From Acidimicrobiia bacterium (lineage in GTDB: Bacteria > Actinomycetota > Acidimicrobiia > Spongiisociales > UBA11373), in NCBI GenBank assembly GCA_030584185.1, contig CP129495.1:310001-374000 (forward strand): 64,000 nucleotides of DNA. Direction: 5' to 3'. A program made the translations under genes and the position numbers. Of the stretch, positions 7,609-59,980 are shown one piece after another; within the stretch, counting starts at the first letter, position 1, and every line of letters starts with the position of its first letter. The notes below the pieces were generated by a model. The model did no database searches. It was not told where the DNA came from and saw only the letters and a list, made by a program, of their open reading frames with translations.

Positions 7609-7669
7609 CGTCTCCTTCACGCTAGACGGCATGCCGCCATGGGCCTTGCCGCCGGGCATCCGCACCGTC

Positions 7670-7675
7670 TACCGT
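7670..7675 (+). promoter_or_regulatory. -10 element TACCGT for ThyX-like gene
   Basis: TACCGT ends eight bases before the GTG at 7684, with no Shine-Dalgarno between; likely a leaderless or near-leaderless transcript. Confidence 0.45.
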
Positions 7676-7683
7676 CGCCGGTC

Positions 7684-9360
7684 GTGACCCCCAGCGAGCC
7701 GAACCCCCGGCCCACCACCCCGCTGCTGCACCATCGCGAGGATTTCGCCGGCGCCGAGGAGAGGGTTCTCCGGCGCTTCTTCACCAACACCACCGAGCCG
7801 GTGTTCGCCCTCATCAACCTCCCCGAGGTCGTGAAGGGAGCGCTGTTCGCCCGCTACAGCCGGTCCCCCAAGTCGCTGCGCCGACTCTTCCTCGACGAGT
7901 TCTACGAGGCGCCCGAGGCAGGCGTGGCGGCCATCGCCGAGAGCATCGACGAGGAAGACGCCTCGGTGCGTACGCGGCGCGCCGAGGAGCTGTACGGGCG
8001 GATGTTCACCGACTACGGCGACGACTCCGTGGCGCAGCTCGGTGGCATGCACCTGGCCTGCGAACAGGCCTCCAACGTGTTGACCAAGGTCCTGGAGTGG
8101 GGCCGCCTGGCCGCCTACCTGGAACAGAGCACCCGCTACATGTTCTATGACAAGCACCTGGGTGGCCGCTATCGCTACACGGTCCCACCGGAACTTCTCG
8201 GCCATCCGCTCGAGACCGAGTTCCGACGGGTCATGGACGGCCTGTTCACCACCTACTCGGGACTCACCGAGAGGCTGACCCGCTATTACGAGACCCTGCA
8301 CCCCAAGGCCGATGGCGACTCCGACTTCGTGTACCGGAGCACGATCCGGGCGCGGGTCTGTGACGACCTGCGCGGCCTGCTACCGGCGGCCACCATCTCG
8401 AACGTGGGGATCTACGCCTCGGGGCAGGCATACGAGATGCTGCTGGTCAGGATGAACGCTCACCCGCTCGCCGAGGCGCGCGCCTACGCCGCCATGATGC
8501 TGGCCGAGCTGCGCAAGGTGGCGCCCGCCTTCTTGCGGCGGGTCGACATCCCCGACCGGGGTGGCGACTGGTCGCGATTCCTGGCAGAGACCGCCGCCGG
8601 GGTGGCGAGGTCGGCCGAGGCCGTAATCGACCACGAGCCTCGGAGCCGGCCCGAGGTGGTCCTGGTCGACTGGGATCGGGATGCCGAGAGCAGGGTGGCG
8701 GCGGCCGCCCTGTACTCGGTCACAGATCTCCCCGCCGACGATCTGCGGCGAGCCGTCGACGCAATGGATGAGGCGACGCGAGCAGCGATCGTGGCCGCCT
8801 ATGTGGGGGATCGCCGCAACCGGCGCCACAAGCCTGGCCGCGCCATGGAGGCTCCGACCTACAAGTTCGACATCCTCTGCGACTACGGCATCTTCCGGGA
8901 CCTGCAGCGCCACCGTCTCCTCACCCTGGAGTGGCAGCGACTGGGCACCCTTCACGGGTTCGTCACGCCGGAGTCCGTCATCGACATCGGTGCCCAAGGC
9001 TCCTGGCATGCCGCAATGAAGGAGGCGGGCGATCTGCACCGGCTGCTGGCCGATTCGCTGGGACCCGACACCGCCCAGTACGCCGTTCCCTTCGCCTATC
9101 GGATCCGCTTCTACATGCAGATGAACGCCCGCGAGGCATTCCATCTCATCGAGCTGCGCACTGCCCAAGGTGGCCACCCCGACTATCGGCGGGTGTGTGC
9201 CGAGATGCATCGCCTGATCCGCGACCAGGCCGGGCACCGGCTCATCGCCGACGCCATGAAGTTCGTGGACCACGGAGAGCACAGCCTGGGCCGCCTCGAG
9301 GCGGAGCGGCGCGCAGCGGCTCGCCGCGCCGCCGTCGGAGTCGCCGATCCCGGTGTCTAG
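7684..9360 (+). CDS. Double-domain ThyX-like protein (FAD-dependent thymidylate synthase family)
   Basis: 558 residues, about twice the length of an ordinary ThyX. Two ThyX-like halves are visible. In the first, the place of the RHRxxSxNExSxR signature is taken by WGRLAAYLEQSTRY (about residues 139-152), followed by a ThyX-like block with NAHPLAEARAYAAMMLAEL. In the second half RHR is kept (about 409-411) but continues as LLTLEWQRLG, followed by MNAREAFHLIELR and a Gly-Gly-His in the dUMP-binding region. Classic ThyX makes dTMP from dUMP using FADH2 and methylene-folate; whether this protein still does so is open. The GTG at 7684 fits the promoter. Its stop codon shares CTAG with the convergent gene. 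Confidence 0.82.
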   Translation: MTPSEPNPRPTTPLLHHREDFAGAEERVLRRFFTNTTEPVFALINLPEVVKGALFARYSRSPKSLRRLFLDEFYEAPEAGVAAIAESIDEEDASVRTRRAEELYGRMFTDYGDDSVAQLGGMHLACEQASNVLTKVLEWGRLAAYLEQSTRYMFYDKHLGGRYRYTVPPELLGHPLETEFRRVMDGLFTTYSGLTERLTRYYETLHPKADGDSDFVYRSTIRARVCDDLRGLLPAATISNVGIYASGQAYEMLLVRMNAHPLAEARAYAAMMLAELRKVAPAFLRRVDIPDRGGDWSRFLAETAAGVARSAEAVIDHEPRSRPEVVLVDWDRDAESRVAAAALYSVTDLPADDLRRAVDAMDEATRAAIVAAYVGDRRNRRHKPGRAMEAPTYKFDILCDYGIFRDLQRHRLLTLEWQRLGTLHGFVTPESVIDIGAQGSWHAAMKEAGDLHRLLADSLGPDTAQYAVPFAYRIRFYMQMNAREAFHLIELRTAQGGHPDYRRVCAEMHRLIRDQAGHRLIADAMKFVDHGEHSLGRLEAERRAAARRAAVGVADPGV

Positions 9361-9624: not shown

Positions 9625-10467
9625 GTGCTCGACCGGCGTCTACTCATCGTCACCGGGAAGGGAGGGACCGGCCGCTCCGCCATCACCGCCGCCATCGCCA
9701 TCGCTGGTGGCCGCCAGGGACGGCGGGTACTCACCCTTGCTGTCGACTCCGGCGTCGGGCTGGCGCACCATCTCGGCAGCGAAGGCATCGGCCCCGATCC
9801 ACAGCGCATCGGTCACGTTGCCGTAGCCAGGGTCGACCCGGCCCGGGCACTCGATCAGTACCTGCGGCTCCGCACCCGGCTGCCCGCCGCGGGGAGCGCC
9901 GCTCGGGTCTTCTCGGCCCTGGCCGACGCCGTGCCCGGCGTGCGCGACACCCTGGTCCTGGGCAAGATCGTCTACGAGGCCACCCGGCCCCACTGGGATC
10001 TTGTGGTGGTGGATGCCGATCCGACCGGGCGCATCCTGTCGCGACTGCGCGCCGGGGCCACGGTACGCCGTCTGGTCTCACGAGGGCCGGTGCGGGAGGA
10101 AGCCGAGTGGTTGGAACGAGTGCTGGCCGACCCCAGCCACACGGCGGCGGTGCTGGTGGCGACTCCTGAGGATCTGCCGGTGCGCGAAGCGAACGAGTTC
10201 CGAGATGCCATCGACACCGAACCGCTGGTCGCCATCGGCGAGGTCGTCGCCAATCGTGTGCTCCCCGATCCAGACTTCACCGCAGCGCAGGCGCGAGCCG
10301 CCACGGGCTCGGCGGGGGCGATGGCGACCCTCCACCTCGGCCTACACCGGTCCCAGCGGGCGCCGCTTCGAGCACTTCGGGCCCGCCGGCATCTGCCCTT
10401 CCTCTTCGGCCTGCACACGCCGGCCGAGGTGGCGGAGAGCCTCGCCGACCTGGTCGAGCAGCCATGA
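9625..10467 (+). CDS. ArsA/Get3-like ATPase, subunit 1 (P-loop Lys replaced by Arg)
   Basis: Cytoplasmic SIMIBI-class ATPase of 280 residues. The deviant Walker A reads GKGGTGRSA (residues 11-19): the signature lysine K12 is kept but the P-loop lysine is Arg17. The switch I Asp is in AVDSGVGL and switch II is DADPTGRIL. It overlaps the second ATPase by four bases (ATGA). The arrangement resembles the mycobacterial Rv3679-Rv3680 pair, anion-transporting/Get3-like ATPases that act as a heteromer. No arsenite pump or CxxC zinc motif is seen, so arsenic resistance is unlikely. Probable leaderless GTG start. Confidence 0.82.
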   Translation: MLDRRLLIVTGKGGTGRSAITAAIAIAGGRQGRRVLTLAVDSGVGLAHHLGSEGIGPDPQRIGHVAVARVDPARALDQYLRLRTRLPAAGSAARVFSALADAVPGVRDTLVLGKIVYEATRPHWDLVVVDADPTGRILSRLRAGATVRRLVSRGPVREEAEWLERVLADPSHTAAVLVATPEDLPVREANEFRDAIDTEPLVAIGEVVANRVLPDPDFTAAQARAATGSAGAMATLHLGLHRSQRAPLRALRARRHLPFLFGLHTPAEVAESLADLVEQP

Positions 10468-11462
10468 CTGCGGTGACCCTGGTCATGGGTGCCGGTGGCG
10501 TCGGCAAGACGACCGTGGCCGCCGGCCTCGCCGCCCTGGCCTCCCGAAGAGGGCGCCAGACCCTGGTGATCACCGTCGATCCTGCACGCCGCCTCGCTGA
10601 CGCACTCGGCGCCCCGGCTGGAGACACACCCACACCCGTCCCCGGAATGCCTCGACTACACGCATCGATGGTGGACGCAGCCGCATCCTGGGAGGCCACC
10701 GTGCGCCAGCATGCAGATCCGGCTACGGCCGAGCGGCTGCTGTCCAACCCCTTCTTTCGCGCCGTTGCCGACCGGTTCCCGGCGGGCCAGTCCTACGCGG
10801 CAGCCGAAGAGGTGACCCGGCACACAGCCTCCGGAGACTTCGAGGTGATCGTCGTCGACACGCCACCCTCCGAGGGCGGCCTCGAGTTCCTCTCCGCACC
10901 CGAGAGCATGCGCAGCCTGGTGGCAGGGCGAGCGCTGCGGCTGCTCACCGGTGCCAGGATCCCCGGACGCCGGCTGTTCTACTCGGTCACTACCCGGCCC
11001 GCCCTCCGCATCGCCGACTCGATCCTCGGCGGACGCCTCCTCGAGGATGTGGCCGAGTTCCTCATCGACCTGAGCACCATCTACGGAGGGGTCGCCCGGC
11101 GCTCCCGAGAGGTGGAAGAGGTTCTGCGTGCGGCCTCTCCCGTGGCGGTGGCCACACCCGAGACCCACGCCGTTCACGAGGTGGAACGCATGCTGGGTCA
11201 CACCGGATGGCCGGTGCCACCCGTCGTGGTGCTCAACAGGATGCTCCCTGCCGACTGGGCGAAGGCCGGAGCCGGCAGCGGACCGCTGGCCATCAACGTG
11301 AGCCGCTGGCGTGCCGAGGCCCGTCGCCACGAGTCCTTGCGTCGCGCCCTGGCGGCCACGACCGGAGCGGAGCCGGCGGTGCTCCCCTGGTTGGCCACTC
11401 CCCCCGATACCCCGGATGCGCTCGCCGACATGATCGAGGCGGCAGGACTGCAGGTGGCCTAG
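10464..11462 (+). CDS. ArsA/Get3-like ATPase, subunit 2 (signature Lys replaced by Ala)
   Basis: 332-residue partner of the preceding ATPase. Walker A is GAGGVGKTT (residues 9-17): the P-loop lysine K15 is present but the Get3/MinD signature lysine is Ala10, the reverse of subunit 1. Switch I is TVDPARRLADALG and switch II is VDTPPSEGG. The C-terminal half carries LNRMLPADW, the family's nucleotide-base region. The complementary losses suggest an obligate heterodimer with one composite ATP site (inference). Translationally coupled through ATGA. Confidence 0.84.
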   Translation: MTAVTLVMGAGGVGKTTVAAGLAALASRRGRQTLVITVDPARRLADALGAPAGDTPTPVPGMPRLHASMVDAAASWEATVRQHADPATAERLLSNPFFRAVADRFPAGQSYAAAEEVTRHTASGDFEVIVVDTPPSEGGLEFLSAPESMRSLVAGRALRLLTGARIPGRRLFYSVTTRPALRIADSILGGRLLEDVAEFLIDLSTIYGGVARRSREVEEVLRAASPVAVATPETHAVHEVERMLGHTGWPVPPVVVLNRMLPADWAKAGAGSGPLAINVSRWRAEARRHESLRRALAATTGAEPAVLPWLATPPDTPDALADMIEAAGLQVA

Positions 11463-58617: not shown

Positions 58618-58815
58618 TCACTCGACGTCGATGTGCTGCGGACCGCTCCCCTCCTCCTGGGCGTCATCGTGAGCTGGGGCCGAGCCGATCTCCTCGAGGA
58701 AGGCGCTCACCCCGGCAACGACCTCTATCGCCGCCTTCATGAAGTGGAGCCCGGCACGCTGCAACCCGCGCCGCGTTGCGTCCCCGATCTCGTGGCCTTG
58801 GTGATGCTCATCCAC
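58618..58815 (-). CDS. Small hypothetical protein downstream of the ArsA-Hsp20 gene
   Basis: 65 residues from a GTG at 58815 that overlaps the ArsA-like 3' end by eight bases. A His/Asp-rich start (VDEHHQGHEIGDATRR) precedes an amphipathic helix (HFMKAAIEVVAGVSAFLEEI) and an acidic tail. An ATG at 58740 would leave only 40 residues. Not recognised; the coupled position suggests a real gene, but proof is lacking. Confidence 0.45.
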   Translation of the reverse strand: MDEHHQGHEIGDATRRGLQRAGLHFMKAAIEVVAGVSAFLEEIGSAPAHDDAQEEGSGPQHIDVE

Positions 58816-59980
58816 GGCGATCTCCGAAACGAACCCAGAGTTCACCTTCGCTGAGCCTGGCACCGATCAGCTCGCGCCGGCGCAGAGAGTCCGGCAGTGC
58901 CAGGGACCGCCGGTAAGGCCCGACCGTCACGTAGACGTCGTCGTGGTGTCGCATCACGTCCACCTCGCCCTTCTCGGCCAGGGGCAGGCGCAGGGCCAGC
59001 ACCACCTCTCCCCCCTCCTCGAAGACTCGGAACGGATCCGCTTCGGCGAGGCGGTCGGTCGGATCCAGATCGCGGTAGAGCTCCTCCCCCACGATTCGCA
59101 ATCGGTCCACGCCGACCATCTCCTCGTCGAACAGCCGCAGGTGGAGGCGGGACAGATCGGCGAAGGCCTCGTCGACTGTGGTCAGATGCTCCGCCTGTAC
59201 CTCTCGCCAGCGCTTGAAGTAGGGGTCGGTGACCTCCTCGGGAATGATCCGGTTGACCACGGCCGCATCCACGGCGTAGCCGAACAGTCCCAGGTACGTG
59301 TAGGTGCGGCGCGCCTCGCTGACCACCATCTTCTCCAGGTTCATCACCAGCCGGGCACTGGTGATGGCGGGGTCGGCGAGAACCCTCCGCACCCCGGCTA
59401 TCCGGCCGTAGAACCCCTCCCCGGCCTCGAACACGTCGTCGCCGGGTAATGGCATGGACATCACCCGCGACAGGACCGGCCTGACGACACGCGCCACCCT
59501 GCGCTCCAGCGGGAACAGCTTCTCCATGTACCAGCCGAGCACGTCGGGAAGGCTGAGCAGGCGGAGAGTCTCCGCGGTGGGGGCGCAGTCGACGACGACG
59601 ACGTCGAAGGCGCCGGACGCGACATGATCCTGGACCTCGGCCAGAGCGAACAGCTCGTCCATGCCCGGCAGGACCACCAGCTCCTCGGCGGCGATGCCCT
59701 GCGCGCCACCCCAGTCGAAGAGATCGGCCAGGTAGTCGCGCACCTTCCCCCAGTGGGTCTCCAGGCGACGCTGGGCATCGATCTGCTGGCCGAGCAGGCC
59801 CGGCACGATCTCGGTCGGAGTGTCCTCGAGGGGGACGGAGAAGGCATCGGAGAGGCTGTGTGCCGGATCGGTGGACATCACCAGGGTGCGATGGCCCAAC
59901 TCGGCGCAGCGCAGGGCAGTGGCCGCCGCCACCGTCGTCTTGCCCACGCCTCCCTTGCCGGTGATGAGGAGCACCCTCAT
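58808..59980 (-). CDS. ArsA/Get3-like ATPase fused to an Hsp20-like domain
   Basis: 390 residues. Full deviant Walker A TGKGGVGKTT (signature K9, P-loop K14), switch I STDPAHSLSDAF and switch II VDCAPTAETLRLL, then a helical substrate-groove region (MEKLFPLERRVARVVRP, VSEARRTYTYLGLFGY). The last ~70 residues form an ArsA_HSP20 beta domain (LALRLPLAEKGEVDVMRHHD, VYVTVGPYRRSLALPD). Role by family: handling of a tail-anchored or hydrophobic client, not proven. ATG overlaps the SRPBCC stop (ATGA). Confidence 0.9.
   Translation of the reverse strand: MRVLLITGKGGVGKTTVAAATALRCAELGHRTLVMSTDPAHSLSDAFSVPLEDTPTEIVPGLLGQQIDAQRRLETHWGKVRDYLADLFDWGGAQGIAAEELVVLPGMDELFALAEVQDHVASGAFDVVVVDCAPTAETLRLLSLPDVLGWYMEKLFPLERRVARVVRPVLSRVMSMPLPGDDVFEAGEGFYGRIAGVRRVLADPAITSARLVMNLEKMVVSEARRTYTYLGLFGYAVDAAVVNRIIPEEVTDPYFKRWREVQAEHLTTVDEAFADLSRLHLRLFDEEMVGVDRLRIVGEELYRDLDPTDRLAEADPFRVFEEGGEVVLALRLPLAEKGEVDVMRHHDDVYVTVGPYRRSLALPDSLRRRELIGARLSEGELWVRFGDRRG

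Follow-up and report, generated by a model that had tools for sequence, protein, structure and literature searches.

Two overlapping genes in the window, by which we mean the whole stretch of 64,000 nucleotides analysed here, encode ArsA/Get3-like ATPases of which neither carries the motif GKGGxGK[ST] with both lysines, and they raise the question at which of its sites such a pair would hydrolyse ATP and whether the two departures from the motif depend on each other. Subunit A departs from the motif at Arg17 (codon CGC) and subunit B at Ala10, and jointly the pair holds each lysine once (Table 1). The Walker A motifs and the short overlap of the genes had been described in an initial annotation of this DNA and were borne out on reading the sequence and its frames. 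The pair is not a chance arrangement, as both genes are intact, confidently modelled (AlphaFold mean pLDDT: A 93.8, B 88.5) and conserved as neighbours.

Table 1. Features of the A/B gene pair (positions in the window)
Feature	Position	Strand	Remarks
Subunit A, BagA-like	9625-10467	+	GTG start, TGA stop included; 280 aa
Walker A of A, GKGGTGRSA, residues 11-19	9655-9681	+	Signature Lys12; Arg17 in the place of the P-loop lysine
Asp41 of A	9745-9747	+	Aligns with the Get3/ArsA switch-I Asp; Pro-Ala absent after Asp41; variable among A orthologues
ATGA overlap, B start / A stop	10464-10467	+	4 bases common to A and B
Subunit B, BagB-like	10464-11462	+	ATG start; 332 aa
Walker A of B, GAGGVGKTT, residues 9-17	10488-10514	+	Ala10 in the signature place; P-loop Lys15
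Switch I of B, Asp39-Pro40-Ala41	10578-10586	+	Invariant among B orthologues

A and B are homologues of BagA and BagB (Rv3679 and Rv3680) of Mycobacterium tuberculosis, since each subunit finds its best match, in sequence as well as in structure, in its own chain of the PDB entry 6bs3, the title of which refers to ADP-bound bacterial Get3-like A and B and the chains of which are Rv3679 of M. tuberculosis and its partner. Among solved proteins, A lies closest by sequence to 6bs3_A and B to 6bs3_B, and the same chains are the best structural matches of the two models (Z 28.2 over 277 residues for A, Z 28.7 over 313 residues for B). Both subunits exceed the gathering score of 24.3 of the Pfam model ArsA_ATPase (PF02374), with 66.5 bits (3e-18) for A and 86 bits (4e-24) for B, and their top NCBIfam models are BagA (123 bits) and BagB (183 bits), respectively, with scores that miss the equivalog cut-offs (400 bits for BagA, 521 bits for BagB). 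The kinship with Rv3679-Rv3680 that had been suggested from the letters of the window is thus supported by the best NCBIfam, sequence and structure match of each subunit. An assignment to the arsenite pump ATPases was rejected, as TIGR04291 scores only 46 (A) and 38 (B) bits against a cut-off of 650.

The likeness to BagA-BagB of M. tuberculosis (PDB 6bs3, 6bs4, 6bs5) includes the arrangement as an adjacent two-gene pair, the B motif GAGGVGKTT without the signature lysine, and the presence of this lysine in A. Unlike the window's A, however, Rv3679 retains the P-loop lysine (GKGGTGKS) and is longer, with 340 aa compared to 280 aa, and the window's pair differs further in its scores under the equivalog cut-offs and in its neighbours, a thyX-like gene and dnaE. 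The B model contains an additional helical stretch at approximately residues 156-223, partly of low confidence, where A is shorter. Rv3679-Rv3680 is reportedly the subject of a 2019 paper. The A/B pair is not the only Get3 homologue of the genome, as a conventional single-chain ArsA/Get3 of 390 aa is encoded at 58808-59980 on the reverse strand, with GKGGVGKTT including both lysines, the switch-I sequence STDPAHS and an ArsA_HSP20 domain at the C terminus.

Orthologous pairs were gathered from the window's order, from other orders of the class, from the phylum and from 85,000 scanned species genomes, the matches of which came from Actinomycetota, Myxococcota or other deltaproteobacterial genomes, and the resulting set comprises 237 A and 230 B sequences. 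The signature position of A is Lys in 236 of the 237 sequences and Gln in one, while the P-loop position, at which the counting pattern admits only Lys or Arg, is Lys in 222 and Arg in 15; both lysines are present in 221. In B, the P-loop Lys is found in all 230 sequences under the same pattern, and the signature position is occupied by Ala (92), Ser (91), Gly (18), Pro (12), Cys (11) or Thr (6), with Lys in 0/230. A pattern-free alignment of the first sequences of this set (170 A, 163 B) likewise gave Lys or Arg only at the P-loop position of A and Lys in 163/163 at that of B. The switch-I motif DPA occurs in 230/230 B and 0/237 A sequences, and the alignment of orthologues shows that A keeps the nucleotide-binding residues Ser18, Asp130 and Asn210. 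The statement that each subunit has lost a lysine hence stands as far as the residues are concerned and overstates the loss, Ala10 being the family state of B and Arg17 a conservative replacement shared by those 15 A orthologues.

A and B are same-strand neighbours in 227 pairs, 191 of which show an NTGA overlap, and in a proteobacterial MAG (SZUA-336) both are naturally fused into a single frame of 811 aa with a linker (L071:3944-6376, + strand), in which the A half carries GKGGTGKTS and the B half GTGGVGKTT. This fusion speaks for an obligate heterodimer laid out like ArsA and, along with the adjacent pairs, upholds the obligate pairing that had been proposed for the two subunits. In one genome (L212, G177) a single B gene is adjoined by two A-type genes, and two A matches per genome are frequent in other orders of the class. 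Residue 19 of A, which follows the Walker A serine, is Ala in 90 of 92 members of the order and usually Thr or Ser outside of it.

From our point of view, it is probable that A and B form a heterodimer of the BagA/BagB type with one catalytic composite site, composed of the nucleotide of B and Lys12 of A, and a second, degenerate site in A. For Get3 it is documented that a subunit's signature lysine touches the nucleotide of its partner (PMC9599529; PMC10248533). In the heterodimer geometry that we infer from Get3 and the structure of the M. tuberculosis complex, Lys12 of A would cross the interface as a lysine finger for the nucleotide of B, where Lys15, Thr16 and the switch-I Asp39 would bind ATP and activate water. 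The site of A would obtain no lysine finger from B, and its switch I is not conserved. Given that a positive P-loop residue (Lys, or Arg in the present case) and Ser18, Asp130 and Asn210 are kept, A probably still binds a nucleotide, which would serve a structural or regulatory role. ATP turnover at the B site could then open and close the dimer, which would act in this way on a putative client.

The single composite site, as such already proposed for the window, draws its support from the near-invariance of the catalytic residues of B and of the signature lysine of A, which the site of A itself does not share. Three observations speak against this reading, namely that Asp41 of the window's A lines up with the catalytic Asp of switch I, that an active enzyme, Get3d of Nostoc, tolerates Arg at the P-loop, and that the A protein of L160 (G123) has Gln at the signature position (AQGGVGKSA). 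The last is the sole A orthologue without the signature lysine, which its B lacks as well, and this pair would, judged by its motifs, have a lysine finger at neither site. We call the site of A degenerate because of the pattern in the family and the missing lysine in trans and not because of the window's Asp41; an Asp in this register is found in only 4 of 94 members of the order.

Rather unlikely, though the most serious of the alternatives, is that both sites hydrolyse ATP, with Arg17 standing in for Lys and Asp41 as the catalytic residue, in which case A, by itself or within the dimer, would work as a slow ATPase. A precedent is provided by Get3d of Nostoc (NosGet3d, PDB 3igf/8egk), a Get3 homologue with a natural Lys-to-Arg exchange in the P-loop and Glu for the catalytic Asp, which still hydrolyses ATP with a kcat of 0.28 per min, where Arabidopsis Get3d reaches 1.10 and yeast Get3 2.7 per min (PMC10248533). 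As this protein carries the Arg and is active, a P-loop Arg does not necessarily mean a loss of function, and since Asp41 is in register, some hydrolysis at site A may occur; the retention of Ser18, Asp130 and Asn210 would also suit a working site. Nostoc Get3d, however, which is further distinguished by a C-terminal alpha-crystallin domain, keeps its signature lysines, whereas site A receives none in trans, as position 10 of B is Lys in none of the 230 sequences, and the conservation of switch I is confined to B.

We consider it very improbable that the heterodimer became obligate recently, in this lineage, through two complementary and interdependent lysine losses, a reading developed from the initial annotation. 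Both residues are as that annotation described them, but the state of B is universal: since the signature lysine is absent from B everywhere sampled, Actinomycetota and Myxococcota included, its absence is, by the sequences at hand, ancestral to the sampled family and not a change of this lineage, and it is older than the Arg change in A. Reciprocal loss is further contradicted by the A subunits, and with both lysines in 221 of the 237 A orthologues the proposed coupling does not survive the alignment of orthologous pairs that had been suggested for judging it. In a tree of 99 pairs, from which the Walker A columns were excluded and which, as the product of a quick search, contains some weak forks, the Lys/Arg state at the P-loop of A changed at least seven times inside the window's order, with six changes forced by starred branches; this count is silent on direction, so that Arg was gained or reverted, each time where B was already without its lysine. 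Arg occurs in the families f1, f3, f4, f5 and f8 of this tree and once more in another order (L256), while the nearest relatives of the window's pair (G007 and G012) have kept the P-loop Lys in A.

The initial annotation had proposed to examine whether the Arg and Ala substitutions co-occur, and Arg17 is tied to no particular residue of B: it accompanies Ala, Gly, Ser or Pro at the signature position, and hence the alignments give no sign of a coupling to B. Among the columns listed, none co-varied with Arg17 beyond chance across independent pairs, a comparison of low power with at most six starred pairs. That all 15 non-Lys residues are Arg suggests that a positive charge is still required at the P-loop of A, with the lysine columns of the A and B alignments being too few for an empirical Lys-to-other control. 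It is likewise highly doubtful that neither site hydrolyses and that the pair serves as a scaffold or holdase stabilised by nucleotide, as the eroded site of A would allow, but the catalytic residues of B, invariant in 230 sequences, and the lysine finger of A, present in 236 of 237, imply selection for catalysis.

The heterodimer with a single composite site can be set beside several known systems. Get3/TRC40 of yeast and archaea has the same fold and the same cross-interface lysine finger, but its dimer is made of identical subunits and its two sites are equivalent, whereas A and B split the catalytic residues between them. As regards tail-anchored protein targeting, the task of Get3/TRC40, the analysis brought up no client or receptor for A and B. 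In ArsA of E. coli and L. ferriphilum, two non-identical Get3-like halves form a pseudo-dimer, a layout that is also seen in the L071 fusion; unlike A and B, both halves of these proteins carry both lysines in our alignment. Heterodimeric ABC transporters also pair a consensus ATP site with a degenerate one (PMC12038006, PMC4046567), although they belong to an unrelated family and provide a mechanistic analogy only. We think it somewhat more probable than its contrary that all BagA-BagB pairs, at least those of Actinomycetota and Myxococcota, combine a fixed composite site for catalysis with a second site that is permanently degenerate, with further drift to a P-loop Arg in some lineages including the present one, and that they would represent the Get3-family counterpart of the degenerate-site ABC transporters.

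In relatives of the window, the pair is flanked by a thyX-like gene and dnaE, unlike in Actinoplanes, where it lies in whiB/penicillin-binding-protein surroundings, and we found no hint to a client in the gene neighbourhoods of the window's relatives and of Actinoplanes. The thyX-like gene of the window (7639-9360, + strand) encodes a protein of 573 aa with two Thy1 (ThyX-like) stretches and adjoins the pair in relatives too (L039:2070-3701). The mycobacterial bagA and bagB genes have been linked to citrate tolerance by transposon work, which also cites earlier work tying the pair to glycerol and nitric-oxide toxicity (PMC10597346), and another screen ties it to survival of streptomycin and rifampicin (PMC12216072). 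Our searches for other BagA-BagB literature brought up two transposon screens and one microarray paper, and the transposon work names no client.

Overall, the pair of the window is a member of a known family with a recurrent P-loop Arg variant, and its asymmetry is an old trait of that family and no novelty of this genome. The idea of a single composite site is, at the level of sequence, well supported across the whole family. As such, the poorly understood BagA-BagB system, which is present in M. tuberculosis, gains a testable mechanism in which the heterodimer would hydrolyse ATP at a single site, and the natural series of pairs with Lys or Arg in the P-loop provides material to probe the role of the second, degenerate site.
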